This document shows positions 2,927 to 42,936 of a stretch of DNA of 42,936 nt, piece after piece (position 1 is the stretch's first letter; each line of letters begins with the position of its first letter). The notes under the pieces were generated by a model. That model was not told the DNA's origin. It saw only the letters and a program-made list of their open reading frames with translations, and did no database searches. This stretch comes from a virus. Location: positions 1 to 42,936 of the IMG/VR virus record IMGVR_UViG_3300036780_000065. The stretch is one strand, 5' to 3'. The translations under genes and the position numbers were made by a program.

Positions 2927-3142
2927 ATGGCAGGCGAGTATCAGCAAGCGTTTGAGAAACGAAATCCCGGCCTGACTCCGCCAGGGAAAGGCCACAAACC
3001 GAAAAACAAACGCGCCGCGGCGGCAGTGCATCAACTCGGCAGAACAAAGGTGACGGGGAACTTTGCCAAGATCGAGAAAAAATCCGGTAAAGGAGCTGCC
3101 ATCGCAGCATTCCAAAATGCACGAAAGGTCCACAAAGCCTGA
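2927..3142 (+). CDS. Small basic protein, unknown function
   Basis: The ATG at 2927 follows GAGGAGGG with good spacing. A longer in-frame ORF reaching back to 2684 would run through the tRNA-like element and the His-rich gene and is rejected. The 71-residue product starts MAGEYQQAFEKRNPG and is Lys/Arg/Ala-rich with a helical C-terminus (GAAIAAFQNARKVHKA). The EYQxAxEKRN motif is shared with the end of the protein at 2370-2552. The stop overlaps the next ATG (TGATG). Confidence 0.65.
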   Translation: MAGEYQQAFEKRNPGLTPPGKGHKPKNKRAAAAVHQLGRTKVTGNFAKIEKKSGKGAAIAAFQNARKVHKA

Positions 3143-3492
3143 TGGCCTACCGGACCGAAGCCGATCGCAAAGCCAACGCGCGCGCCTATCATGCTCGCGT
3201 GGGGCGGCAGAATTCGGCCGCACTCTGCAGACGCAATCTCGGTTTCCTGCGGCGATACAAGGAATCGCATCCCTGCGTCGATTGCGGGGAGTCACGCTGG
3301 TGGGTGCTCGATTTCGATCATCGGGCCGAAACCGACAAAACGTACAACCTGACCAGGATGCGCTATCACAAGATGGAGCGGATTCTGGCGGAACTCGCGA
3401 AATGCGATGTGCGCTGCAAAAATTGCCACGCAGATCGCCACTATCGCGAAGGCACACGGCAAAGCGCGATTAAGATCGCGCCGCGCTTCTGA
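3142..3492 (+). CDS. HNH endonuclease
   Basis: The 116-residue protein has CVDCGE, WVLDFDHRAETDK and CDVRCKNCHADRHY, the zinc CxxC pairs and DFDH...NCH catalytic residues of a small HNH homing nuclease. The basic N-terminal helix (RTEADRKANARAYHAR) probably contacts DNA. It is of the same subtype as the protein at 2096, but the two share little outside the motifs, so they are not a recent duplication. It lies just upstream of the terminase gene, a conserved target often chosen by homing nucleases. Confidence 0.8.
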   Translation: MAYRTEADRKANARAYHARVGRQNSAALCRRNLGFLRRYKESHPCVDCGESRWWVLDFDHRAETDKTYNLTRMRYHKMERILAELAKCDVRCKNCHADRHYREGTRQSAIKIAPRF

Positions 3493-13467: not shown

Positions 13468-14208
13468 ATGTCCTACAGCGTCAATCAGTCGATCGCATGG
13501 GCGCAGTCGGTGATGGCGACGTACATCCCGCTCACCGCGCAAACCGGAAGCGAGCCGGCGCTCACGATCGCGAACATGGTTCTCGCCTTCGTGCTCGCGC
13601 CGCCCTTTAGCTGGCCGACGAACCGCGCGGAGTACAGCGGCGCCGCGCTGAACATGACCGCCGGCAGCCAGGACTACACTTTGCCGATCACGAGCTTTGG
13701 TTTCCTCGAGACGGTGACGCTCACCAATCCCACCGGCGGAAAGTCTTTCATTGTGAAAAATATTTACAATTCGATGGCGCTCGGCACGAGCACAGAGCAA
13801 ACCGCGCGTCCCTCGGCGTGCTCGGTGAAGGCCATCATCCCCGGCACGAGCGTTTCGCTGCGCTTCCTTTCGGCTCCGGATCTCGCCTACACCGGCACCG
13901 CGACCTATCAGCTCGCGCCGAATTTCTTCTCGGCCACAACGCAGGACTGGTTCACGCAGGGCAACATCCCGCAGCAGCAGATGCACATGTATAACAATCT
14001 CTTCCTCGCGGAGTGCTTTCAAACCAACGGGGATCCGGAAGCTGCAGGGATGTACCGGCGCCGCGGAATGGCCGCGCTGCTCGCAACGGCCGAGGGACTC
14101 ACCGAAGCGCAGAAAAACCTCATCGTCGCGCAAGCGATGTACGCGGATCTGCAGACCATCGCGATGAACTTGCGCGCGCAAATGGCCGGCCAGGCGAGAG
14201 CCGTCTAA
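13468..14208 (+). CDS. Tail tubular protein A-like (T7 gp11 type)
   Basis: The 246-residue protein follows AGGAAGGG with good spacing. Layout matches T7-type tail tubular protein A: N-terminal helices (NQSIAWAQSVMATYIPL), a beta domain beginning with DYTLPI, a central RFLSAPDLAYTGTATYQLA, and a C-terminal helical bundle (LFLAECFQTNGDPEAAGMYR). Its stop overlaps the start of the large next gene (TAATG), the usual A-B order. It probably links the portal/adaptor to the tail nozzle. Confidence 0.6.
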   Translation: MSYSVNQSIAWAQSVMATYIPLTAQTGSEPALTIANMVLAFVLAPPFSWPTNRAEYSGAALNMTAGSQDYTLPITSFGFLETVTLTNPTGGKSFIVKNIYNSMALGTSTEQTARPSACSVKAIIPGTSVSLRFLSAPDLAYTGTATYQLAPNFFSATTQDWFTQGNIPQQQMHMYNNLFLAECFQTNGDPEAAGMYRRRGMAALLATAEGLTEAQKNLIVAQAMYADLQTIAMNLRAQMAGQARAV

Positions 14209-17513: not shown

Positions 17514-19531
17514 TGGCCGCGCGACGTCCACCACTTGTGCCGAAAGATACGGCGAATGACGGTCTGCCCGAGAATTGGCACCCGGTGTTCGAACCTCCGA
17601 CCGTCGTCGGTGGCGGCGGTGGAGCTCCTCCTGCAGCTCCAATGTCGGGCCCGCGCGGCGCCGGCGATTACTTCGCGGGATCTCTTCCGCAAGCTCTGAA
17701 CCTTCCGCCGGATGTGATGCCGCCGGCATTCCCTGGCGCGCTCGGCGCGTACCGCGTTCTCCCGCCAGGCGCGGCCGGGGTTCCCGGGATCAACGCGGCC
17801 GCGCAATCCGCGCTCGCGCCGGCGATCGACTCCCTGCAGTCGCAGATCAACAATCTTCCCGTCGCGAAGCCCGGCGTCGGCGACGACATCACGCATGGAA
17901 ATCCTATTTGGTGGCTCGATCCCGGCTTCAACTGGCTGCGCGACGACTTCACGCAAATCCAATCCGCGAGCTCGACGTCCGTACCGGTCGCGGCGATCGG
18001 GCAACTCGGGTGGGTGCTCGATGCTTCCTCGGCGCCGTCGCATGGTGGGCTGTTCGGGGGAATTCCGCCCTTCCTCGGGCAATATTGGTGGGACAACAAT
18101 GCGAACGCGAACGCCTACGGAGTCCTGCACCTCGGACAGAACGGCGTCAATGGCGGAAACACCGGCTCAAATATCGGGTGGGCCATGTTCGACAATCCCG
18201 GCTCCTGGCTCGTTTTTATTTTCCGCGTGGGTGGCTCGAGTCCTGGTTTCACAAACGGGCTGAACTTCGGGCAGAAGTCGATTTACGTGGGACTGGCGGG
18301 ATCGACCACACTCACCAATTTTTCAACGAACGCCTCGGCGCGGCCGGATACGTTCTTTGGCGTGCGCTACGACACGGCGCCGGCGGCCGCGAGCACCTCG
18401 GTTAGTTACGCCTGCACCGCCGTCACGCAAACCGGCAGCAACATGGTCATCACCGGCACGTTCACCGGCGCGAATTCGGCGACCGGCACGACCTGGGTCG
18501 GCCGTTGGTTCAACACGACGAGCTTCGGCAACGCGGCGAACAATGGGACGTTTCTCTGCACCGCGGCGACGACTACCTCGCTCACTCTTCTGAATCCGAA
18601 CGGGATCACCGCTACGGGACAGTCGGCGCATGCGATCGCAAACACTCCGCTGGTCCTCACCGCGGCCGCGAACGGCAACGGCGTCCAAGTGGTTTACACC
18701 GGGACGATCACGGGCGGCGGCACCAACAATTACGTCGGCCAGTTTTTCTACGTCTCGGGATTCGGCAACGCCGGCAACAATGGCGGGCCCTTCAAGTGTG
18801 TGGCAAATTCGACGACGACGATCACTCTCGCAAATCCGCTCGTCACCGGATCCGCCGAAACTCACGCCGGCTACACTTCGGGACCGAACCTGCTCGATAC
18901 AACTTTCGTGCTCGAGGCGGTGCAGAATCCGAGCTACGGCGCCGTGGGGCGAAACAATACGCAGGGGCAAACGCTGAACACCGGGATCGCGCCCATTGTC
19001 GGAACCTGGCACCGGCTCGATGTGATTATCAACGCCGCCGGCAGCATCACTCTCATCTTGGATGGCAGCGCGGCCAACACCCTCACCGCGACGGTCAGCA
19101 AACAGACGATCACGACCGGCGCTGCGCAGTTCACCGGGTCGGTGTCGGGCAATCAGCTCTCATTTAGTTGGACGGCGTCCCCGGGATCCATCGCGCAAGC
19201 GCCGTGGGTGACAGGAAGCCAAGTCACCGTGAGTGGATTCAGCGGAACGCAAGCGCCCTTCAACGCCACCTGGTCGGTGATGGCGAACGGCAGCGGCAAC
19301 TTATATTTCGATTACGCGGCCGCCTCGAGCGTCGGATCCGCTTCCGTCACCGGCACGATCAGCGGATACCCCGCGGTTTTCCCCTGCTTCATTTACGGCA
19401 ACACGCAGGAGGCGAGCCCGCAGGCTTCCTCGCTCACATTTTGGGCCGACATGTGGGCGATGGCCTGGAATCCGAACCTGGGGCCAGCCACCCCAGGCAC
19501 GGCGGCCGCGGCAAAGCCGAGGTACTTTTGA
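17513..19531 (+). CDS. Tail fiber/spike-like protein with Ig-like repeats
   Basis: ATG at 17513 follows AGGAGGGG. The 672-residue protein has a Pro/Gly-rich N-terminal third, then a LamG-like region (WVLDASSAPSHGGLFGG; LVFIFRVGGSSPGF). It also has three internal repeats of about 60-75 residues, around nucleotides 18400-18650, 18680-18890 and 19120-19370, sharing TGTFTG / TGTITG / TGSVSG openings and FGNAxNNG loops in the first two. This mix of glycan-binding and Ig-like modules is typical of receptor-binding fibers. The repeats interrupt the LamG-like domain, suggesting acquired inserts. Confidence 0.6.
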   Translation: MAARRPPLVPKDTANDGLPENWHPVFEPPTVVGGGGGAPPAAPMSGPRGAGDYFAGSLPQALNLPPDVMPPAFPGALGAYRVLPPGAAGVPGINAAAQSALAPAIDSLQSQINNLPVAKPGVGDDITHGNPIWWLDPGFNWLRDDFTQIQSASSTSVPVAAIGQLGWVLDASSAPSHGGLFGGIPPFLGQYWWDNNANANAYGVLHLGQNGVNGGNTGSNIGWAMFDNPGSWLVFIFRVGGSSPGFTNGLNFGQKSIYVGLAGSTTLTNFSTNASARPDTFFGVRYDTAPAAASTSVSYACTAVTQTGSNMVITGTFTGANSATGTTWVGRWFNTTSFGNAANNGTFLCTAATTTSLTLLNPNGITATGQSAHAIANTPLVLTAAANGNGVQVVYTGTITGGGTNNYVGQFFYVSGFGNAGNNGGPFKCVANSTTTITLANPLVTGSAETHAGYTSGPNLLDTTFVLEAVQNPSYGAVGRNNTQGQTLNTGIAPIVGTWHRLDVIINAAGSITLILDGSAANTLTATVSKQTITTGAAQFTGSVSGNQLSFSWTASPGSIAQAPWVTGSQVTVSGFSGTQAPFNATWSVMANGSGNLYFDYAAASSVGSASVTGTISGYPAVFPCFIYGNTQEASPQASSLTFWADMWAMAWNPNLGPATPGTAAAAKPRYF

Positions 19532-28248: not shown

Positions 28249-28479
28249 ATGACACCGGAAGAGATCGAGGCAGCGATCGAGGCGTATCAGCTCCTCGAGC
28301 CCGTCGCGATGAAGGCGATCGCGGACCTCATCGAGATCGAGGCAGCGATCGAGGCGTATCAGCTCCTCGAGCCCGTCGCGATGAAGGCGATCGCGGACCT
28401 CATCGGCAAGATCCACAAAAAGCAGCTCACCGCCCAGGATTTTCTCGACATGGCGGCGAAGCTGGTTCCTCAACCCTAG
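28249..28479 (+). CDS. Small helical protein with exact tandem duplication
   Basis: The 76-residue product starts MTPE, then has two identical copies of a 24-residue helical unit beginning EIEAAIEAYQLLEP and ending IADLI, and ends with GKIHKKQLTAQDFLDMAAKL. Without the duplication the protein would be 52 residues. An ORF reading back to 27751 overlaps the lipoprotein gene. Function is unknown; its place between the lipoprotein and the spanin-like gene suggests a lysis or regulatory accessory. The stop overlaps the next GTG start. Confidence 0.5.
   Translation: MTPEEIEAAIEAYQLLEPVAMKAIADLIEIEAAIEAYQLLEPVAMKAIADLIGKIHKKQLTAQDFLDMAAKLVPQP
28261..28404 (+). repeat. Perfect 72-bp tandem duplication
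   Basis: Bases 28261-28332 and 28333-28404 are identical over all 72 positions, in frame (24 codons). The lack of any silent difference implies a very recent event or strong homogenisation. The unit is shorter than the 127-base overlap, so the assembler could have resolved it, but copy number may vary in the population. Confidence 0.9.
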
Positions 28480-31027: not shown

Positions 31028-31281
31028 AAGAACCTGTCTGCACCGAGTGCGGCGTTCCGATCGAGCCAAACACTTCTTACCTGGTGGGCCAGATCGTCAC
31101 CGCGCTCGACGACGCCGGCAAAACGGTGAGGGTGACGATGTTCGGATGGGCCTGCGAGCACCATCCCAAACCGGAGGCCGACATCATCCTCGGCTCGAAC
31201 GATTGCGTGGTGGGCTATGCGAGGAAGCACCCGCAGCACGAGGCGGTCATCCTGCAGATTCTCGCGAAGGTGATTTGCTGA
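31024..31281 (+). CDS. Small zinc-ribbon-like protein
   Basis: The 85-residue product starts KEPVCTECGVPIEPNTSYLV, then has GWACEHHPKPEAD and ends KVIC. CxxC plus C-x-H-H could hold one zinc ion. Function unknown. It is coupled on both sides (ATGA upstream, TGATG-like junction downstream). Confidence 0.5.
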   Translation: MKEPVCTECGVPIEPNTSYLVGQIVTALDDAGKTVRVTMFGWACEHHPKPEADIILGSNDCVVGYARKHPQHEAVILQILAKVIC

Positions 31282-31634
31282 TGCCGCATGGGCTCAAGGA
31301 AGATCGCGCAGTGACGCGCCTCGCGCGCCAAAACCTTCTGATTCAGGATCCCGGCTCGTTTATCAGCCTGGCGGATCCGCGCGGCCGCGTTCACATCCAC
31401 TGCGAGGGTTTCGATCGCAGCAAGGTCCGCGCGGCCGCGTTTCTCAAACAGAAAGAAAAATGCGCGGTGTGCGGCCGGCAACTCGACCCGATCAAATTCG
31501 AGCTGCATCACCCGGCCGCCTGCGATTGCCTGGACCCGAGCTGTCCGGATCACGTTGAAGCGCGCTGCGGCCAGTGGGATAGTCTCTGCCATCGACACCA
31601 CACCGCGGATTTTTCGCGGAGGGCCAGTGGCTAA
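31281..31634 (+). CDS. HNH endonuclease
   Basis: ATG at 31281; an in-frame ORF back to 30690 overlaps two genes and is rejected. The 117-residue protein has KCAVCGRQLD, KFELHHP, CDCLDPSCPDH and CGQWDSLCHRHHTADF: zinc-binding CxxC pairs plus the FELHHP...LCHRHH core of the HNH fold. The N-terminal part is unrelated to the other HNH proteins here. It may be a homing enzyme or, since it is coupled to the early operon, a resident nuclease. Confidence 0.65.
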   Translation: MPHGLKEDRAVTRLARQNLLIQDPGSFISLADPRGRVHIHCEGFDRSKVRAAAFLKQKEKCAVCGRQLDPIKFELHHPAACDCLDPSCPDHVEARCGQWDSLCHRHHTADFSRRASG

Positions 31635-31880: not shown

Positions 31881-32222
31881 ATGGCCGAAGAGAAAAGCGA
31901 GCTCGAGCAGTACCAGGAGCGTTACGCGGTCGCGGCGCACGCGATGCAGAGCGGGGTCAAGGCGACGATGCAAATGGAAAACGCGGCAGGACTCGACGCG
32001 CCGGATTCCATTTTTGAATCTGCACACAGCCCGAAACATCTTCGCGTCGGCGTCAACTCGATGATGGTGGACAGCTCGGCGCTCGCGCTGCTCCTGATCG
32101 AGAAGGGCGTCATCACGAAGCTCGAGTACGCGAAGGCGATCGCCGAAGGCATGGAAAACGAAGTGAAGTGCTACGAAGAAAGCCTCACACACTACTACGG
32201 GAGAAAAATCACACTGCGATGA
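31881..32222 (+). CDS. Small protein, unknown function
   Basis: The 113-residue product starts after AGGGGGATAG. It is helical and acidic in the N-terminal part (EEKSELEQYQERYAVAAHAM) and contains RVGVNSMMVDSSALALLLIE and AKAIAEGMENEVKCYE. A short all-helical protein of phage early regions; no function known. ATGA-type overlap with the coiled-coil gene. Confidence 0.5.
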   Translation: MAEEKSELEQYQERYAVAAHAMQSGVKATMQMENAAGLDAPDSIFESAHSPKHLRVGVNSMMVDSSALALLLIEKGVITKLEYAKAIAEGMENEVKCYEESLTHYYGRKITLR

Positions 32223-33067
32223 CTGACACTGCGATCGAGCTGCAGCTTTCCAAAGAGCAACAAGAGGCGATCGACAAATTCAACGGCATGCTCGCGCCGA
32301 TCCTCGAGGCCGCGAAGATCGAGATCAAGGACCAGGCGGATCTCGTGAAGTCGGGCGACGCGAAAATTTCCCTCGAGGCGTACATCAAGGCGGTCAAAGC
32401 CCACTTCGAGTTGGAACTGTCTCCGCTCGAGGAGCGCGTCAAGCGAATCAAAAACCAGATCACCACACTGACGTCGCCGGCGTCGCCCGTGCTCAAGGAT
32501 CTGGTGGAGAGACAACGCGCATGGATGGCCGAGGAAAAGCGCAAGAGCGAGGCGGAGACAAAGCGCAAATCCGATGAGCTCCTGCGGCTGCAGCAGCAGC
32601 AGGCCGAACAGGAACGGCGCGACGCCGAGAAGGAAGCGGCCGACAAAAAGCGCGACAAGGTCGCGGAGATCAACGCGGATGCGAAAGCCGGCCGCATCGG
32701 CAAACGTGAGGCGGCGAAACGGCTCAAGGAAGCCGGCGCCGAGGCCGAGGCCGCGATCGAAACCGCGGCTGCCGTGGCCGAGGAGCAGAAAAACGCTCCG
32801 CCTCCGGAGGTGCGCGTCGTGCCGAATATCCCGAAAGTCGCCGGCGTGAAAAACCAGACGTACTACAAAAGCGCGGTGATGGATGGAAAGCTGATTGTGC
32901 AGGCGTTCGCCGCCGCCTGCGCGAGCAAGGATCGCGATCGCGCAGCCTTCCTCTGGCCGTTCCTGTGCGTCAACGAGAAACAAGTCGGCGTCTACGCGCG
33001 CGAGACGCAGGATCCGGAGAAAGTCATGCGCAACCTCCCTGGTGTGAAGGCGTGGTCCGAGGGATGA
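32219..33067 (+). CDS. Coiled-coil early protein, recombination-region type
   Basis: ATG at 32219 overlaps the upstream stop. The 282-residue product has a long, highly charged coiled coil (about 40-200, including EERVKRIKNQITTLTSP and QQQQAEQERRDAEKEAADKK) and a globular C-terminus (IPKVAGVKNQTYYKSAVMD; KQVGVYARETQDPEKVMRNL). Proteins with this layout and a VPGVxxW-like end (here LPGVKAWSEG) are common close to RecT/Red-type genes in phages. Possible partner in recombination or host-nuclease control; inferred from context. Confidence 0.55.
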   Translation: MTDTAIELQLSKEQQEAIDKFNGMLAPILEAAKIEIKDQADLVKSGDAKISLEAYIKAVKAHFELELSPLEERVKRIKNQITTLTSPASPVLKDLVERQRAWMAEEKRKSEAETKRKSDELLRLQQQQAEQERRDAEKEAADKKRDKVAEINADAKAGRIGKREAAKRLKEAGAEAEAAIETAAAVAEEQKNAPPPEVRVVPNIPKVAGVKNQTYYKSAVMDGKLIVQAFAAACASKDRDRAAFLWPFLCVNEKQVGVYARETQDPEKVMRNLPGVKAWSEG

Positions 33068-33506: not shown

Positions 33507-34144
33507 AATACACCGCGAATCCCGTGGAAGTCGATGCGTACAAGATTCTCGAAGTGGGTCCGGAGGCCGATCGCTCCGCCGGCGAGAGGATCCTCAAACT
33601 GGATGGCGGGCCAGGCATGGTCATTTGCGACAAGCCGATGATGGCCCGCTACACCCCAAATCCCGGCGATTATTGGGTGATCCAGTCGGACGGCTATCCG
33701 TACCTCAACCCGAAGGAAGTTTTCGAGCGGAAGTATTCGAGCGCGCCGCGGCTCACCCTCGAGCTCACAAACTCGCAGCGGCTTGCGGCGCTCGTGATCC
33801 TGACCGAATACATTCACTCGCCGGCCTGCGGCGGCCGGCAGAATTTTACGGACTACTCACAAACGCCGCCCGTCGCCGTAAATCTCAGGGAGCTCAGTGC
33901 TCTTTTTGTCGTCGCGGTGCCGGCGCGGAATATCCACGCGGAGCACCGGTTCGAACCGATGGATCCTAACCGGGACTGCTCTTGCGGATGGAAAGCTGAG
34001 ATCCCCACCGTGAGCGGCATCGACGAAGCGTGGAAATCGCATGTAAGACAGGAGGAAGCAAAAACGCATGGGAAGCCCCAGGACGAACCAGAAGGCGAAG
34101 CCGCACCCGCACCCGAAACGCCAGCATCCCCCAAAGGCGTCTAA
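33503..34144 (+). CDS. Conserved phage protein (GDYWVIQxDGYxYLNPKxVFERKY type)
   Basis: ATG at 33503 overlaps the upstream stop (ATGA); a GTG at 33491 is the alternative. The 213-residue product starts MKYTANPVEVDAYKI and has PNPGDYWVIQSDGYPYLNPK and VFERKY, a motif set found in very many phage early proteins of unknown function. A second part carries DCSCGWKAEIP and a Pro/Glu-rich tail. Its end overlaps the RecT-like gene by 77 bases. Confidence 0.6.
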   Translation: MKYTANPVEVDAYKILEVGPEADRSAGERILKLDGGPGMVICDKPMMARYTPNPGDYWVIQSDGYPYLNPKEVFERKYSSAPRLTLELTNSQRLAALVILTEYIHSPACGGRQNFTDYSQTPPVAVNLRELSALFVVAVPARNIHAEHRFEPMDPNRDCSCGWKAEIPTVSGIDEAWKSHVRQEEAKTHGKPQDEPEGEAAPAPETPASPKGV

Positions 34145-35297
34145 AGGCGGGCGGAAAGAATCGCGGCGCGCCCCATCCCAGGCGCTCGGCCGGCCGGCAA
34201 CTCTGCCCGAACGGATCGAAAAGCTGCTCATGGAGGGGGATCTGCGGACGCTCTCGGCGCCGGAGCGTCTTTTGTTTATGAAAGATCTCTGCCGGTCGCT
34301 CGGCCTGAACTGGCGCACGCGGCCGTTCGAATACATCGTTTTCACCGATCGCGATCGCGACGATGAGGAGCAGCAGGACTCGCAGAACCCGCCCGCGGGC
34401 AAGATGATCCTGTACGCGCGCGCGGACTGCGCCGCGCAGCTCCGCAAGATCCACAAAGTAGGGATCGAGAAAAATCTCAAACGCTGGCGCGAGGGCGAGT
34501 TTTATTACGCGGAGGCAAATCTCTACATCTACGAAAAGGCCGGCGTCCGGACTGATTCGGCAATCGGCGTCGTGTGGCTGAAGAAATGGAAAAAGGGCGC
34601 GAACAACACGCGGACCCTGGTCGATGTCACCGGGCAGAAGCTCGCGAACCTGATGATGAAAGCGGAAACGAAGGCGAAGCGTCGCGGCACTTTTTCGATC
34701 TGCGGGCTGCACATGCTCGACGAGTCGGAGCTCGATGACCTGACGAACATCACGTACGACGTCACCGAAAGCGGCCGCGTGGTGGAAGTCGCAACGCCCG
34801 GCCAGGCGCCGCCGCGGCCGGCGCTCGAGGCTGGCGCGCCGATCGGGCAGGAGCTCTATGAGCTCGCCGTCGCGATGGCGCAGCGGCAGAGTCAAACCGC
34901 GGTTCCTTTCAAAAAGCGAGTCGAGGAAATCCAGACGCAGCTCCGTCAGAATTCCACGCCGGCGCAGATCTCCGCACTGCACAAGAAATTCACCGAGCCG
35001 CAACCGGCGCAAGCTCCGCAGCCGACGGGGCAACAAAGCCCTGGCGCTGCGGCTGCGGATAGGGGGGGCGCTGCGGAGGGCGCCCCTGATAATTTCGACG
35101 GCATAACGATCAAGGCCATCGGGAATGACCTCTACCAGCTGGTCGGTTTGAAATCCGTGCTACGCGAGGCATGGTCGGTGATCAAAATGTACTGGAAGCA
35201 GAACGCAAAACCGCCGGCGTTCATCGCGACGGCGCAGGAAACCGGCAAAGTGATGGCGGCGCTCGAGAAGGCGCACATCAAACATCGGTGGCTCTAA
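34068..35297 (+). CDS. RecT/Red-beta-like ssDNA annealing protein
   Basis: Start at 34068 follows AGGAGG; the overlap with the upstream gene is in the disordered basic N-terminus. The 409-residue protein has FMKDLCRSLGLNWRTRPFEY, KMILYARADCAAQLRKIHKV, and MMKAETKAKRRGTFSICGLH followed by MLDESEL. The GLNxxTxPFEY...LYAxxDxxxQLR...KAETKAKRRxT pattern is that of phage recombinases of the RecT/Red-beta superfamily, which anneal single strands during replication-linked recombination. A Pro/Gln linker and a small helical C-terminal domain follow. No partner exonuclease is recognised. Confidence 0.6.
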   Translation: MGSPRTNQKAKPHPHPKRQHPPKASKGGRKESRRAPSQALGRPATLPERIEKLLMEGDLRTLSAPERLLFMKDLCRSLGLNWRTRPFEYIVFTDRDRDDEEQQDSQNPPAGKMILYARADCAAQLRKIHKVGIEKNLKRWREGEFYYAEANLYIYEKAGVRTDSAIGVVWLKKWKKGANNTRTLVDVTGQKLANLMMKAETKAKRRGTFSICGLHMLDESELDDLTNITYDVTESGRVVEVATPGQAPPRPALEAGAPIGQELYELAVAMAQRQSQTAVPFKKRVEEIQTQLRQNSTPAQISALHKKFTEPQPAQAPQPTGQQSPGAAAADRGGAAEGAPDNFDGITIKAIGNDLYQLVGLKSVLREAWSVIKMYWKQNAKPPAFIATAQETGKVMAALEKAHIKHRWL

Positions 35298-35842: not shown

Positions 35843-36328
35843 ATGAAACTGCGCGCGGCGAAGAATGAAGGCGCCGACAAGATCACCATGATCGACCACA
35901 CCGCGAGCGAACGGCATAGCTGCAGCGTGCTCGAGGCGGTGACGCACCTCGCGCGCCTGGTCGAGAAGGGCGCCGGCGAGCACATGATCCACGTCGTTGA
36001 CCTCAAAGCCGAAAAGGAACGCAAGTTGAAAAACCCCAAGGGATCCACGAAGCGTGTTTTTAATTGCCGCACTCCGGAGCAACTCATCGAGTTGAACACG
36101 AAGCTCGAGCCTTTCTACGAGGAAGCCGTCGATCCGCACATCGCGATAGATCTCATCGTCCGCGCGCTTAATGTCCCGCGCGAAACAATCCGGTCCTGGG
36201 TTCACGAAGGGGAAGAGGAGCGCCAGGGCCCGCCGCCGGCCGCGCCGCTGCCAGGTGATGAATGGTTCCATGCGCGCGAGCCGGGAGTCGAGCCGGTCGA
36301 GGATGATCTTCCGGAGGAGCTACGTTGA
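35843..36328 (+). CDS. Unknown early protein, possible helix-turn-helix
   Basis: Start chosen at ATG 35843, 10 bases past the upstream stop; a GTG at 35795 would overlap the previous gene. The 161-residue product has TPEQLIELNTKLEPFYEEAV, then IAIDLIVRALNVPRETIRSW, which reads like a helix-turn-helix, and an acidic Pro-rich tail. DNA binding is a weak inference. Coupled to the next gene through a TTG start. Confidence 0.45.
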   Translation: MKLRAAKNEGADKITMIDHTASERHSCSVLEAVTHLARLVEKGAGEHMIHVVDLKAEKERKLKNPKGSTKRVFNCRTPEQLIELNTKLEPFYEEAVDPHIAIDLIVRALNVPRETIRSWVHEGEEERQGPPPAAPLPGDEWFHAREPGVEPVEDDLPEELR

Positions 36329-36928: not shown

Positions 36929-37021
36929 AGTTTGCCGCTCACGCGCGCGGCAGAACCCGCGGCGCCGCAGGCTCCACAGAGCACTCGACCGGCGCCACGG
37001 TGTAATCCCAAGGAGAGGCCA

Positions 37022-37390
37022 ATGCCGACCGGCATTTACCAGCATCCTCAAGCCCACGGACACGCGCGCGGCAGTTCGCCATCGCCAACGTACATAAGCT
37101 GGCGAGCGATGCGCAGGAGATGTGACTACCCGAAAAACAACCGCTATGCGCTCTACGGCGGCCGGGGAGTCCAGGTTTGCGAGCGTTGGGGCAAATTCGA
37201 GAACTTCCTCGCGGACATGGGACCGCGACCCGCTGGCAAATCTATAGATCGCTTCCCTAACCCGGATGGAAATTACGAGCCCGCAAACTGTCGGTGGGCG
37301 ACGCGCTCCGAACAGATGCAGACGCGCAGGCCATTTAAACACAGCCGTACAACGAGGAGGTATCAGGATGGAACGCGAAAAAGTAATTAG
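37022..37390 (+). CDS. HNH-type homing endonuclease (paralogue of 19883-20224)
   Basis: ATG at 37022 after AAGGAGAGG; a TTG upstream in frame (36932) adds a low-complexity stretch and is not used. The 122-residue product has SPTYISWRAMRRRC, YGGRGVQVCERW, FENFLADMGPRPAGKSIDRF and YEPANCRWATRSEQ. It aligns along its whole core with the minus-strand protein at 20224, differing by a short gap before FENFL. A free-standing mobile nuclease in the early operon. Confidence 0.75.
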   Translation: MPTGIYQHPQAHGHARGSSPSPTYISWRAMRRRCDYPKNNRYALYGGRGVQVCERWGKFENFLADMGPRPAGKSIDRFPNPDGNYEPANCRWATRSEQMQTRRPFKHSRTTRRYQDGTRKSN

Positions 37391-37646
37391 CAGCATGATC
37401 ACCTCGGTGGGTTACGACGCCGACGCGCAACTTTTGGAGATTGAATTCGCTCCGAAACCAAACCAGGCAAGCGGGCCGGTTTACCAGTACGCGAAGTTCC
37501 AGCCGGCCGACTGGACCGACTTCCGCCAGTCCAAGAGCATCGGCAAACACTTTCGCGAACGGATCTCGGGGATCTTCGCGCATACCCGCGTCGGCGAACC
37601 CGTCGCGAAACCGGCACCGGCTGCGCGTGTAGGGCCATCGCTGTAG
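37368..37646 (+). CDS. KTSC-domain-like protein
   Basis: ATG at 37368 lies behind AGGAGGTATCAGG. The 92-residue product has ISSMITSVGYDADAQLLEIE, VYQYAKFQPADWTDF and QSKSIGKHFRERISGIF. The layout I-xS-VGYD...LEI.F...Y.Y...(A)xSxGxxFxxxI matches the KTSC family, small domains also found beside lysyl-tRNA synthetase and in phages, role unknown. The preceding nuclease gene overlaps its start. Confidence 0.6.
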   Translation: MEREKVISSMITSVGYDADAQLLEIEFAPKPNQASGPVYQYAKFQPADWTDFRQSKSIGKHFRERISGIFAHTRVGEPVAKPAPAARVGPSL

Positions 37647-37660
37647 TACCGGGGGTAGGG

Positions 37661-37886
37661 TTTTCCATCTTTTGCACAGCTTTTTCCACAGGCCGCCGCC
37701 GCCGTCGCGGGAGGGAGAGGAATGATGGGGAGGAAGAAGGGGGATCCTAAGGGGGAAGTGGGAGGGGAAGCAAGGGGAGGGAACCTGTGGAATCCACAGG
37801 GTCATGTGGAAAACGCGAAATCGCACGATAAACAGGCGCGATCCGCTACCTCAGAAATCCACAAGCGAGTGATCGCCTGTGGAAAA
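37661..37886. other. Candidate replication origin: DnaA-box cluster with purine-rich tract
   Basis: Sites fitting the bacterial DnaA box TTWTNCACA: TTTTGCACA (37670-37678), TTTTCCACA (37682-37690), and TGTGGAAAA (reverse) at 37805-37813 and 37878-37886. Also a 17-bp palindrome CCTGTGGAATCCACAGG (37784-37800) with two opposed half boxes, and a weaker AAATCCACA (37855-37863). Between lies a strongly purine-rich strand (37711-37780). No replisome genes were found, so recruitment of host DnaA is a coherent explanation. Confidence 0.6.
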
Positions 37887-37940
37887 CGGAAGGGATTGCC
37901 ATGCACAATCACCCCCGAGGAAGTAAGAAAGCAGCTCTAG
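37722..37940 (+). CDS. Possible small protein overlapping the origin candidate
   Basis: A 72-residue frame starts at 37722 or the next ATG, after GAGAGGA. The N-terminal 25 residues are Gly/Lys low complexity imposed by the purine tract. The rest (SHDKQARSATSEIHKRVIAC, then LPCTITPEEVRKQL) looks more protein-like. It overlaps the DnaA-box cluster, so coding status is uncertain. Confidence 0.35.
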   Translation: MMGRKKGDPKGEVGGEARGGNLWNPQGHVENAKSHDKQARSATSEIHKRVIACGKRKGLPCTITPEEVRKQL

Positions 37941-38125
37941 CGCGCGCGGGCCACGCGCCGGCGGCCGCTACTACGGCCCTGGCTTTCGTGCCCGATTGCC
38001 CTTTTTGCGGGCTGCGGATGACGGAATGCGCGCACGCTACCGCGTTTCTGCGATCTTGGAAGTGTGAACCGTGTCGAACAAGCCTGAGCCGGCAGTACGG
38101 AAATTGGATGGGGACCGAAGGATAG
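37901..38125 (+). CDS. Small zinc-ribbon candidate
   Basis: The 74-residue frame starts MHNHPRGSKKAALARAG and contains DCPFCGLRMTECAHATAF and WKCEPCRTSL: two CxxC pairs separated by about 19 residues, as in a zinc ribbon. It overlaps the uncertain ORF upstream by 40 bases and the next GTG-started gene by 55. Unknown function. Confidence 0.4.
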   Translation: MHNHPRGSKKAALARAGHAPAAATTALAFVPDCPFCGLRMTECAHATAFLRSWKCEPCRTSLSRQYGNWMGTEG

Positions 38126-38553
38126 ACGCGCAGTGCAATTACCGCGTCAGTGGATTCCGGTGTCCGTTTGGCGCGTCATTTTTTTTCACCGGGCACCTGG
38201 GCTACTGCGCTTCACATTATTTCGCCGTGCTCGAGCTGCGGCGCTGGCTGTTGGAGGCCACCACACCACATGACGACAATCAAGATGCTGATCTACGGAG
38301 TGCCGATCGCGCAGGGATCTATGAAGGGCTTTCTCCCGAAAGGCTGGACCAGGCCGATCATCACCTCGGACAGCAAAAAAACGAAACCGTGGAAGCAGGA
38401 GATCGCCGGCGCGGCGGCGTCGGCCATGACGAAACGGAAGCTAGACCAGGTGAGCGACGGGCCGGTGCTCGTCGAGCTCGCCTTCTACTTCGACCGGCCG
38501 AAGAGTCTCAAAAAAACAATCCTCCACAAAGTGACAAAGCCCGACGTCGATAA
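38071..38553 (+). CDS. Cys/His protein with long overlap into the resolvase gene
   Basis: GTG start at 38071. The first about 65 residues look real: QCNYRVSGFRCPFGASFF, GYCASHYFAVLELRRWLL give a C-x8-C ... C-x2-H zinc pattern. After about 38270 the frame overlaps the RusA-like gene for 284 bases and becomes Arg/Glu-rich, probably a shadow. The true gene may end near 38270 through an undetected indel. A T8 run (38189-38196) lies within it, but the frame is good on both sides. Confidence 0.35.
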   Translation: MSNKPEPAVRKLDGDRRIDAQCNYRVSGFRCPFGASFFFTGHLGYCASHYFAVLELRRWLLEATTPHDDNQDADLRSADRAGIYEGLSPERLDQADHHLGQQKNETVEAGDRRRGGVGHDETEARPGERRAGARRARLLLRPAEESQKNNPPQSDKARRR

Positions 38554-38713
38554 ACTCGCGCGCGCGGTCCTCGACGCCCTGACGGGCCCGGTGTTCAAAG
38601 ACGACTCGCAAGTAGTCTCGCTGCGCATCACCAAAGGCTTCGACGCGACACCTCGCGCGGAGATCACCATCAACTTCGCGGACCACAGCGAGCTTCCACT
38701 GTTTCAGTCTTGA
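38270..38713 (+). CDS. rusA: RusA-like Holliday-junction resolvase
   Basis: ATG at 38270, with GGAGG 12 bases upstream. The 147-residue product has IYGVPIAQGSMKGF near the start and KPDVDKLARAVLDALTG, VFKDDSQVVSLRITK near the end. The conserved aspartates of DxDxxxxxxxDAL and DDSQV are the metal ligands of the RusA family, which cuts Holliday junctions at dimeric crossovers. It pairs logically with the RecT-like protein in recombination-based replication. An ORF upstream to 38150 overlaps another frame and is not used. Confidence 0.85.
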   Translation: MTTIKMLIYGVPIAQGSMKGFLPKGWTRPIITSDSKKTKPWKQEIAGAAASAMTKRKLDQVSDGPVLVELAFYFDRPKSLKKTILHKVTKPDVDKLARAVLDALTGPVFKDDSQVVSLRITKGFDATPRAEITINFADHSELPLFQS

Positions 38714-40239: not shown

Positions 40240-40455
40240 TCACACCTCCCTGAATCTGTATTTGTAAAGCCCAACCGAAACCGTTTCGCCCTCGCACAGC
40301 TTGCCGACCACCTCACCGCGCGTGCGCCGGCGGGATTTGCGCGACTCGCGCACAATCTCATCCACCGCGTTCGCGAAGGTGATGTCCTGCCACAAACGGG
40401 AGTTAACATTTGTGCGGCGAACGATGTCGCCGCCGGTTATTTCTGAGCGGCTCAC
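40240..40455 (-). CDS. Small basic protein of the minus-strand operon
   Basis: GTG at 40455 with AGGAGA 6 bases upstream on the minus strand. The 71-residue product is basic (EIVRESRKSRRRTRGEVVGK) with an N-terminal GGDIVRRTNVNSRLWQDIT. No family recognised; may bind nucleic acid. It overlaps the end of the HNH gene by 4 bases. Confidence 0.45.
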   Translation of the reverse strand: MSRSEITGGDIVRRTNVNSRLWQDITFANAVDEIVRESRKSRRRTRGEVVGKLCEGETVSVGLYKYRFREV

Positions 40456-40910
40456 TCTGTTCTCCTGGGATGCGCAGCGCGGTAATGTTCATTTTGTTTT
40501 CTGCGAACCTCCGCACGGTGCCGCCAGTAATACGAAGTTGAGACCCGATTCGCGCAAGACCTGCACTGCCTGTGGCCGGCAGGAGTGACATGCGTGTTCG
40601 CGGCATCATAGGCATGACCGGCAGGGCAATGTGTCTTTGCCCGATTTAGGGTTGAGGGCTTATCGGGATGCGTCTCAGGTTTGGTGGGGCGAGTGTGCTC
40701 TGGATTGACGCAGCACCGCACGCGGCAATCATGGTGCAGCTCTGGTGGAAGAACGCGGCCTCCGATGTATTTGTAAGACCAGCGGTGAGCGAGCCAGGTC
40801 TTGCCACGCTCCGATAGAATCCCGTAGCCCGATGCGTTCAGCGCACGTAACCAAAGCCAGCAGCCGTCATCAGTCTGCTGCACGCACCGCATGAACTGTT
40901 CTGGCGTCAC
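40452..40910 (-). CDS. HNH homing endonuclease (I-HmuI-like subtype)
   Basis: The 152-residue product has DGCWLWLRALNASGYGIL, AHRWSYKYIGG, LHHDCRVRCCVNPEHTRPTK and CPAGHAYDAANTHVTPAGHR followed by CRSC. The CWLW...NxxGYG...AHRxSY...LxHxCxxxxCVNPEH signature defines this large HNH subtype, with an added C-terminal CPxGH...C..C zinc module likely used for DNA binding. It differs from the other nucleases in the window. It overlaps the neighbouring 29-residue ORF by 4 bases. Confidence 0.85.
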   Translation of the reverse strand: MTPEQFMRCVQQTDDGCWLWLRALNASGYGILSERGKTWLAHRWSYKYIGGRVLPPELHHDCRVRCCVNPEHTRPTKPETHPDKPSTLNRAKTHCPAGHAYDAANTHVTPAGHRQCRSCANRVSTSYYWRHRAEVRRKQNEHYRAAHPRRTE

Positions 40911-40996
40911 AGGATTGCCAGCGTGTCGCGGAGCGTAACGGCGAGGATGCCGACCAATTGCGCAATCGGTAAAGCAAAAAACAGTAGCTCTTGCAT
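40907..40996 (-). CDS. 29-residue hydrophobic peptide
   Basis: Minus-strand ATG at 40996 after GGGAGAAACACC. The product (QELLFFALPIAQLVGILAV) is a single hydrophobic helix with a short polar tail, typical of tiny phage membrane peptides. A longer frame to 41128 crosses two hairpins and is not favoured. Its stop overlaps the start of the HNH gene. Confidence 0.4.
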   Translation of the reverse strand: MQELLFFALPIAQLVGILAVTLRDTLAIL

Positions 40997-41011
40997 TGGT
41001 GTTTCTCCCTT

Positions 41012-41060
41012 GAACGTGGCGTTAGGCACGTTCGCGCGCGACTCTGCGAAATCGCGCGCG
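41012..41060. other. Two adjacent strong inverted repeats
   Basis: GAACGTG (41012-41018) pairs with CACGTTC (41027-41033), and CGCGCGCGA (41033-41041) with TCGCGCGCG (41052-41060). They share one base and sit between two minus-strand genes. There is no T-run on either strand, so mRNA processing or stability, or protein binding, is as likely as termination. Confidence 0.5.
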
Positions 41061-41067
41061 TGCGGTC

Positions 41068-41277
41068 CTAATCCTGGCCGAACTCGCCTGAAATCCAGAC
41101 AAACCACAAAAACGCGGCGAAGGCGCACATCAGCACGAACCCGCTCTTGCCGCTATCGTCGAACATGTCCCATTCCATCCCGAGGATGGGCAGGGTTACG
41201 GTGAGGAACACAGCCACTATTTTCCACGGCTCACTGAGCCGCAGGCGGGGATCGCGGTCGGGGATCATGTAGCTCAA
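41068..41277 (-). CDS. Two-helix small membrane protein
   Basis: TTG at 41277 overlaps the upstream stop (TTGA), with GAGGAAGG 7 bases before it; an ATG at 41268 is the alternative. The 69-residue product has two membrane helices (WKIVAVFLTVTLPILGM and GFVLMCAFAAFLWFVWI) separated by an acidic loop. Function unknown; exclusion or antiholin-type roles are possible. Confidence 0.5.
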   Translation of the reverse strand: MSYMIPDRDPRLRLSEPWKIVAVFLTVTLPILGMEWDMFDDSGKSGFVLMCAFAAFLWFVWISGEFGQD

Positions 41278-41567
41278 GACTGCACCTTCCTCAACCGCTC
41301 GAAGGTTTCGCGCGTCATGCCCAAACGCGCTGCATGGTGGGTGAGAATTTGCCCGGAAGTCAGCATGAAATCGCTGGCGAGTTGCTCATCACACTCGGCC
41401 GAAACCTCGTGGAAGCGCAGCATGGTGCGCATAGTCCACTCGTCGCGGCTGTAAGACTCAAAGCCGGGCAGCTCTCGCGTCTCTTCAGGCAAGTAGCTCA
41501 CCTTGCCGTTCTCAGTTAGGCGCATCACCGAGTAGTACGGTGTCGCGAATAGCGTGTAAGTTTTCAT
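41274..41567 (-). CDS. First gene of the minus-strand operon, unknown function
   Basis: Minus-strand ATG at 41567 behind GGGAGAACAGAAACC. The 97-residue product starts MKTYTLFATPYYSVMRL and has a helical remainder (SRDEWTMRTMLRFHEVSAEC; AARLGMTRETFERLRKV), the last part reading like a helix-turn-helix. It is divergent from the GIY-YIG-HTH gene, separated by the operator region. Confidence 0.45.
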   Translation of the reverse strand: MKTYTLFATPYYSVMRLTENGKVSYLPEETRELPGFESYSRDEWTMRTMLRFHEVSAECDEQLASDFMLTSGQILTHHAARLGMTRETFERLRKVQS

Positions 41568-41677
41568 GGTTTCTGTTCTCCCGTGCCCGCGTTCGTTTTA
41601 GGCGTGGCCGCCTCGCGTGCAAAGTTAGTAGTGCAATTCGATTGCCGCGCGTAAACCCTCGCGATTCAATCGCGACT

Positions 41678-41744
41678 GTCTCACCGCGCGTGAGAATTCT
41701 CACATGCTGTCTCACAAACGAGAAAATTGCTGCTATTGTGAGAC
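41678..41744. promoter_or_regulatory. Operator array in divergent promoter region
   Basis: Half-sites GTCTCAC at 41678-41684 and 41709-41715, a perfect 14-bp palindrome GTGAGAATTCTCAC (41690-41703), and GTGAGAC (41738-41744). A plus-strand promoter CTCACA (41711-41716)-N17-TATTGT (41734-41739) overlaps two half-sites, with start at about 41746 against the ATG at 41747, predicting leaderless translation. Confidence 0.6.
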
Positions 41745-41746
41745 GC

Positions 41747-42142
41747 ATGCCGCGACTCGTTTTGGATGGGGAAGCACTGGCAAACCGTTACGCGGTTTAT
41801 ATCGCGTGGATTGGCGAATCGTGTGTGTATGTCGGAATGACACGGCAAGGTTTCCGCCGGGTGTTCACAAACGCGACGCTGCGCAAACGCTGGCACGAGC
41901 TGACCCGCGTCGAGGTCGAGTGGCAAGCCAACTCAGACCAGGCACTCGCGCGTGAGGCGCAATTAATCTCTGAATTGCTGCCAGCTCTCAACAAGAGCGG
42001 CAGACACGCTGCGAAGCAGGCCGATAGCCGCGCGCGAGTACAACGCGCTATCGAGCAAGCTCATGGTGATAAACAGCTTGCAGCACATTCACTCGGAATA
42101 AGTCGCGCAACTCTGTACCGCAGAATCGCAGAACACTCTTAG
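41747..42142 (+). CDS. GIY-YIG domain plus Fis-type HTH protein
   Basis: The 131-residue protein has YAVYIAWIGESCVYVGMT (residues about 13-30, a GIY-YIG variant), Arg-rich helix, and EAQLISELLPALN (about 72-84), where Glu and Asn match the final GIY-YIG motif (E..LI....P..N). The C-terminus (GDKQLAAHSLGISRATLYRR) is a Fis-type helix-turn-helix. This is short for a homing enzyme and may be a regulator using a nuclease-derived domain. It lies under its own operator array and appears leaderless; the long upstream frame to 41540 is a shadow. Confidence 0.6.
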   Translation: MPRLVLDGEALANRYAVYIAWIGESCVYVGMTRQGFRRVFTNATLRKRWHELTRVEVEWQANSDQALAREAQLISELLPALNKSGRHAAKQADSRARVQRAIEQAHGDKQLAAHSLGISRATLYRRIAEHS

Positions 42143-42700
42143 CCTTGCACGAAACCCAAACACCATGATCGCCTTCGCCTCAGCAACCTGGCCCGCGCAT
42201 CCGTTGCGTTACACCTTCTCTGCGACTAAACCCTTGACCCTCAGCGCGGCGGAGACAGACCTGCTTTTACTTATTCCTGTCCTAACTCTCTACCTGCTTT
42301 CCCCTTCGCCTTTGCCCTCCCTTTCCCCTTTCACCAACTCTGCAGACTTAACCGCCTTCCTCTTCGGCGTCATCACCACAACTGGCGGGCCGAGTTTGAT
42401 GCGCGCAGAATCGGATTTGCGCTCGCCGCGCGGATGGTTTCGCGGGCGCTAATCGGAGTGCGGTCGCATAGACGAGCGCGGGAACGCAACGTGTCTAATC
42501 GCCACGCGGGCCGGGCTGGATTGCGTGCAAACATAGTTCACCTTCACGGAACTGCGGGCCATTCACCACACTTCGCGGTGCGATTTCCACGCGAATCCCG
42601 AAGCACTCACGCGCACGAAAGCATGCTTCGCGCGAGCCTGGCCGGCGGGTGCGGTCGCCCCAGGGGAGGGCCGCGGTGGATGGGTGTCGTACCGCCCTGT
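42143..42700. other. Largely non-coding region
   Basis: About 560 bases without a convincing gene. A 95-codon frame (42165-42452) starts ATGATCGCC but has no ribosome-binding site and a Leu/Pro/Ser composition (LLLIPVLTLYLLSPSPLPSL); a 109-codon frame (42434-42763) is Arg/His-rich and ends in the operator array. The section 42290-42340 is pyrimidine-rich (CTTTCCCCTTCGCC...). It may hold regulatory RNA or promoter sequence, but I see no clear terminator or promoter. Confidence 0.4.
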
Positions 42701-42766
42701 GTCTTACAGGAGATTTCTTGTCTCACACGATTTTTTGAGGTAGTAAGACAGTGGGGGGTGTAAGAC
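42701..42766. promoter_or_regulatory. Promoter and GTCTYAC half-site array upstream of RHH gene
   Basis: GTCTTAC (42701-42707), GTCTCAC (42720-42726), then inverted GTAAGAC at 42743-42749 and 42760-42766; the last abuts the ATG at 42767. TTGTCT (42718-42723)-N17-TAGTAA (42741-42746) is a plausible promoter overlapped by the inner half-sites. The same half-sites occur upstream of the GIY-YIG-HTH gene. Confidence 0.6.
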
Positions 42767-42936
42767 ATGGAAAAATTATGGAATGTGAGAGGGGTGGGAG
42801 CGGGGGCGAGGGGGCGGGCGAAGGAGGCGGCGGCGGCGATGGGGATGACGATAGGGAAGTGGATGGAGCGAGCGATCGAGCAGGTGGCGAACGGGGAGTT
42901 GGACGATCGGAACCGGGCGAAGAGGGAGCGGCAAAA
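42767..42936 (+). CDS. Ribbon-helix-helix / zinc-ribbon protein, 5' portion (continues at base 3)
   Basis: ATG at 42767 opens a frame that runs off the right edge and continues at base 3 of the circular molecule, ending at 881. Residues 4-10 (LWNVRGV) and about 25-37 (MGMTIGKWMERAI) form the strand-helix pattern of an RHH DNA-binding domain. The start directly follows a GTAAGAC half-site (42760-42766), and a purine-rich GTGGGGGGTG at 42751-42760 could serve as a ribosome-binding site. The domain call rests on motif recognition only. Confidence 0.65.
   Translation, partial: MEKLWNVRGVGAGARGRAKEAAAAMGMTIGKWMERAIEQVANGELDDRNRAKRERQ
42810..42936. repeat. Terminal direct repeat, right copy
   Basis: Identical to bases 1-127. 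Joining the ends keeps the reading frame of the gene that starts at 42767 open through the junction into the ORF ending at 881, which supports real circular closure. Confidence 0.95.

Follow-up and report, generated by a model that had tools for sequence, protein, structure and literature searches.

The 42,936-bp viral sequence analysed here (IMG/VR record IMGVR_UViG_3300036780_000065; hereafter the window) carries a cluster of DnaA boxes in a 254-bp gap, which we call the slot, between a KTSC-domain gene and the next conserved gene, which encodes a small CxxC-containing protein (Table 1). The slot is the largest gap of the operon at 29.7-39.9 kb, where the next largest is 93 bp. An earlier note on this DNA had proposed the cluster as the replication origin of a phage that lacks its own replisome, and the sequence features it described there were found: four exact matches to TTWTNCACA within 226 bp, at 37670(+), 37682(+), 37805(-) and 37878(-), which together span 217 bp (37670-37886); a 17-bp palindrome of opposed half boxes, CCTGTGGAATCCACAGG, at 37784-37800; and a purine-rich strand at 37714-37783, which at 89% purine is the highest-scoring 70-mer of the + strand. 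The slot also holds three boxes with two mismatches, at 37786(-), 37790(+) and 37855(+). No iteron array was found in the slot, and an Rfam search of it gave no match.

Table 1. Features of the slot and nearby genes in window coordinates; G001 and G002 are related phage genomes
Feature	Position	Strand	Basis
Slot, the gap holding the whole element	37647..37900		254 bp, between KTSC gene and next conserved gene
Conserved 35-bp double-DnaA-box core, GGTTTTCCATC-TTTTGCACA-GC-TTTTTCCACA-GGC	37659..37693	+	33/35 identical to G001
DnaA box 1, TTTTGCACA	37670..37678	+	Exact TTWTNCACA match
DnaA box 2, TTTTCCACA	37682..37690	+	Exact match; spacing to box 1 of 12 bp, as in G001
GC-rich spacer at CACA end of box 2	37691..37711	+	Sequence; GC-rich run at same position by G001 double box
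Purine-rich, G-run-rich tract beside boxes, candidate R-loop site	37712..37781	+	Conserved with G001
Palindrome CCTGTGGAATCCACAGG, two opposed weak boxes (37786 -, 37790 +)	37784..37800		Hairpin in single-stranded DNA
DnaA box 3, TTTTCCACA	37805..37813	-	Exact match; context TCATGTGGAAAA common to G001
Weak DnaA box AAATCCACA	37855..37863	+	Pairs with box 4 in single-strand hairpin
DnaA box 4, TTTTCCACA	37878..37886	-	Exact match
Protein without known family, presumably the 'RecT-like' gene of the earlier note	34068..35297	+	Kept in G001, 44.8% identity (tblastn)
KTSC-domain gene, left border of slot	37368..37646	+	PF13619 5e-17; G001 homologue, same position, 55% identity	
Small CxxC-containing protein gene, right border of slot	37901..38125	+	G001 homologue, same position, 33% identity
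RusA-like Holliday junction resolvase	38270..38713	+	PF05866 7e-22; phrog_140 2e-33; homologues in G001 and G002

The window holds five exact TTWTNCACA sites, four in the slot and the fifth at 13752, whereas dinucleotide shuffles gave a mean of 0.86 and a largest count of 3. When we generated 300 order-3 Markov genomes, the most sites found in any 226 bp was 1 in 235 of them, 0 in 64 and 2 in a single genome, against 4 in the real sequence, and clustering by chance is therefore excluded.

Conservation and variation of the slot in related phages

Relatives were collected through the capsid protein, which is 84-89% identical in G001-G004 and 57% identical in G005; in the Acidobacteriota phage Tunturi_3 of Tunturiibacter, which has its own polymerase and primase/helicase, the identity falls to about 29%. 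Of these genomes, only the window, G001 and G002, and in part G003, include the early region. The window and G001 share the gene order 36473-type gene, KTSC gene, box cluster, small CxxC protein gene and RusA gene, and the best 35-bp match between their slots, GGTTTTCCATCTTTTGCACAGCTTTTTCCACAGGC, is identical at 33/35 positions (best of 15 shuffles, 24/35). With the flanking genes as reference, this core is inverted between the two genomes, which argues for a DNA element rather than a coding sequence. An extended 30-mer of the core occurred in no viral contig of the collection besides G001.

The inversion bears on two other explanations. The sites might have no DnaA function and simply come with a small basic-protein gene (ORF 37722-37940) or with the base composition. 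This 72-residue ORF, which had no Pfam match, does overlap the region in part, and its first 20 codons are similar to those of a G001 ORF (MGRKKGDPKG / MERKKRGDRKG). However, boxes 1 and 2 lie outside it, boxes 3 and 4 are in different codon phases, and the two ORFs diverge past the purine tract, so that the C-terminal half is unlike the G001 ORF; coding sequence would not survive the inversion of the core, and the Markov genomes exclude chance clustering. We consider this explanation very unlikely. It is also quite unlikely that DnaA acts here as a transcription factor, tuning the early operon through the slot as the boxes near lambda pO may do, while a phage protein of no recognised family initiates replication. 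The slot does sit inside a co-directional operon, but a consensus scan of 36.0-39.5 kb gave no sigma-70-like promoter, no initiator was recognised in the window, and a positioned operator would not usually tolerate inversion of the double box while gene order is kept.

The purine tract beside the boxes is conserved on the same strand in the window and G001, with GGGGGATCSTAAGGGGG common to both. It is the top-ranking stretch of the coding strand in each genome, both in purine content and in RNA:DNA-hybrid favourability, with nearest-neighbour values of -0.477 (window) and -0.460 (G001) kcal/mol per step, more than 6 standard deviations from the mean (hybrid and DNA parameters after Sugimoto 1995 and SantaLucia 1998). 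No such peak was present at the slot of G002, a relative without boxes. By eye, substitutions between the two tracts do not favour third codon positions, and coding was kept as a rival explanation of the tract. A canonical G-quadruplex was rejected as a conserved feature, since it had matches in the window and none in G001. The second most purine-rich and hybrid-prone tract of the + strand lies at 42790-42859, on the upstream side of the circle's terminase end, and G001 has a similar second peak.

Single-strand folding suggested a further possibility, a priming site of the ABC-primosome type at which DnaA bound to box hairpins would load DnaB for recombination-dependent replication with RusA. 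The 37776-37890 stretch folds with the palindrome and box 4 in stems (z = -5.1; 0/200 shuffles as stable), A-site hairpins with a DnaA box have been shown to load DnaB in vitro (PMC6127211), and a RusA gene is nearby. The likeness to the A-site lies in these DnaA boxes in hairpin stems; the difference is that the hairpins are not a conserved feature, the matching G001 stretch having no such fold (z = +0.7). The annealing-protein call for the 34068-35297 gene was also unconfirmed, and we regard a priming site as improbable.

Two other relatives, G002 and G003, have no boxes. G002, a complete circle, contains no TTTTCCACA, and its slot, between the 36473-type gene and rusA, instead holds a 150-residue ORF of no assigned kind and a 99-residue protein with matches to phrog_678 (to the C-terminal part of this family, 'replication initiation O-like'; 3e-15) and to phrog_6451 ('primosomal protein'). 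In a six-frame search phrog_678 matched G002 alone. Both box-less genomes encode an AAA+ clamp-loader ATPase like the RFC small subunit and T4 gp44 (G002 40446-41228, G003 18386-19105; 79% identical to each other), of which G001 retains the last 37 residues only (18864-18974) and the window no part. Members with boxes thus lack, or have lost, replication proteins that are retained by those without boxes, a correlation read from four genomes, one of them partial. Because the same slot holds an O-like protein in G002 and the clamp loader is absent from the window, the cluster behaves as an exchangeable replication module.

Gene content of the window

The first 127 bp of the window are identical to its last 127 bp (1-127 = 42810-42936). 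Since G002 has an end overlap of exactly the same size at a place unrelated to that of the window, these ends most likely reflect a closed circle that overlaps itself by the assembler's maximum k-mer, and not a terminal repeat of biological origin, and we take the window to be a complete circular phage of about 42,809 bp.

Scans of the early ORFs with Pfam, PHROG and NCBIfam found no replication protein, in keeping with the earlier note's statement that no polymerase, helicase or initiator gene is seen. Six-frame searches of the window and G001 likewise gave no match to DnaB_C (PF03796), DNA_pol_A (PF00476), Bac_DnaA_C, phrog_678, IstB/DnaC or Rep3 (PF01051), and no tyrosine integrase; polymerase families other than family A were covered by the Pfam and PHROG scans of single ORFs only. 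Lambda P (PF06992) was not found in the window, G001, G002 or G003. As for the flanking genes that the note had called RecT-like and RusA-like, the RusA assignment was borne out (Table 1), whereas the 34068-35297 protein, presumably the RecT-like one, had no match in Pfam, PHROGs, NCBIfam or PDB sequence searches. Its only further carrier among the viral contigs searched was G001. An AlphaFold model of this protein (pLDDT 41) and a predicted structure of 35843-36328 (pLDDT 57) were unusable.

Matches to terminase, portal/connector and major capsid proteins were weak to moderate. A search of genome contigs with the capsid profile gave one 29% match, on a contig of a Bacteroidetes metagenome-assembled genome, which is not a host assignment. 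An HNH endonuclease gene lies farther left of the slot than the KTSC gene. Small window ORFs had many PHROG matches to HNH endonucleases, with 36932-37390 matched individually and 2096-2383, 3142-3492, 31278-31634 and 40452-40910 putatively assigned from their sequence and a pooled scan. Elsewhere, 28261-28404 is a perfect 72-bp tandem duplication in frame with an ORF, and repeated TGTCTYAC / GTRAGACA motifs, overlapping the palindrome TGAGAATTCTCA, occur at 41670-41723 and 42700-42766; they are near gene 41540-42142 (Fis-type HTH and weak GIY-YIG matches) and are possibly operators.

A candidate host-DnaA-dependent origin and its known counterparts

On balance we lean towards the slot (37647-37900) being the replication origin of the phage, started by host DnaA. 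Host DnaA would bind the four strong and three weak boxes and recruit DnaB, the helicase of the host, together with its loader. The phage would then be copied by the host replisome and would itself supply no initiator, helicase, primase or polymerase. Because the slot has no AT-rich unwinding element, we infer that opening is aided by early-operon transcription across the neighbouring G-rich purine tract, where an RNA:DNA hybrid is favoured. Origin function is probable rather than proven, as DnaA binding, origin activity and transcription-assisted opening are all read from the DNA. The proposal of an origin in a phage without a replisome of its own held in part: a non-random cluster, its presence in the same slot of G001, the lack of a recognisable replisome or initiator and the O-like protein in the G002 slot speak for it, and GC skew does not.

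Several observations weigh against this origin. GC skew has no minimum at 37.7 kb, an outcome that the earlier note had listed as refuting its proposal; the minimum is near 30 kb and a local maximum near 38-39 kb. The test is a weak one, however, as nearly all genes of this 43-kb phage are on a single strand. AT content was at most 48% in every 50-bp window sampled across the slot, and neither the window nor G001 had a DnaA-trio run (three [TA]A[GA] or two TA[GA]) on either strand; for want of these two features the slot falls short of a full oriC. TTWTNCACA may not be the DnaA-box preference of the host. The element is carried by two genomes only, the window and G001, and the box-less side of the comparison is also two genomes, one partial. 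Several early genes without an assigned function, among them 32219-33067, 34068-35297 and 35843-36328, could hide a divergent replication protein. Cyanophages with a complete replisome likewise carry double DnaA-box sites, which therefore need not be origins.

Some of these points would also suit a decoy that soaks up host DnaA, like E. coli datA, stopping host initiation and freeing nucleotides and replisomes while the phage origin lies elsewhere. The boxes are close to the strong consensus, intergenic double boxes are found in cyanophages with their own replisome, and the slot has no unwinding element. But a host-shutoff site need not occupy a slot that in a relative codes for a replication protein, nor accompany loss of a clamp-loader gene, and the purine tract is conserved together with the boxes; we consider a decoy unlikely.

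The cluster is a real, evolutionarily conserved element and, if it works as a host-DnaA origin, would be a new form of host-dependent phage replication. More tentatively, and with considerable doubt, we suggest that the lineage swapped an O-like protein and a clamp-loader ATPase for a naked DnaA-box element with a G-rich R-loop tract, leaving host DnaA as the sole initiator of a probably lytic phage and transcription in place of an AT-rich unwinding element. If the reading as a host-DnaA origin is right, a phage can dispense with an initiator of its own and leave the start of its replication to the one that serves the host cell cycle; the swap is open to direct testing in the relatives, which differ at precisely this slot, and a small DnaA-driven origin without the usual AT-rich unwinding region would become available for study.

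'Unusual', the earlier note's word for direct use of host DnaA by such a phage, is too strong, since boxes are known in lambda (PMC3985674), have been predicted as an origin in vB_PseuGesM_254 (PMC11512268) and occur as double boxes in T4-like cyanophages; the presence of boxes alone does not prove an origin. In the open-access literature (subscription papers not covered) we found no phage shown to use DnaA alone. The cyanophages S-CAM1, S-H38 and S-RIM44 (Kyanoviridae) share with the window the 23-bp double-box form TTTTCCACAGGTTTTTCCACAGG, mostly in intergenic positions, e.g., near 36320 of NC_020837 (S-CAM1) and near 77203 of NC_070964 (S-H38), and it recurs in other Kyanoviridae. They differ in being T4-like phages of about 180-200 kb, a group that carries its own replisome, and a DNA helicase gene lies near the S-H38 site. 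When viral contigs containing TTTTNCACANNTTTTTCCACA were surveyed (at least 120 matches), those of 30-115 kb were without DnaB (0/33; a random-14-mer control gave 6/31, Fisher p = 0.01). We rejected this as evidence because 52/80 loci fall into a single similarity cluster and the motif is found in named cyanophages; most of the set seems to consist of pieces of T4-like cyanophages, a group in which the long members have DnaB.

The window also differs from phages with a T7- or T4-type replisome in having no DnaB-type helicase or family A polymerase, and from iteron (Rep3) origins in having no Rep3 gene or iteron array in the slot. In the Pseudomonas phage vB_PseuGesM_254, likewise, DnaA boxes were read as an origin from sequence, there by Ori-Finder and with a CtrA motif, a GATC region and an AT-containing region (PMC11512268); the comparison with the window covers the origin description. 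Bacterial oriC, as in the basal unwinding system of B. subtilis (PMC6669920), has the same kind of DnaA-box cluster, in which a double box at 12-bp spacing precedes a GC-rich spacer, whereas the element of the window is phage-borne, without an AT-rich unwinding region, DnaA-trios or a dnaA gene, and has a G-rich purine tract instead. With the lambda ori/O-P system it shares a probable dependence on the host replisome and host DnaA sites near the early-operon replication region, those near lambda pO having been footprinted (PMC3985674), and the slot of G002 holds an O-like protein. The window and G001, unlike lambda, have no O or P homologue, and their boxes would act as the actual origin, not as an accessory to one.
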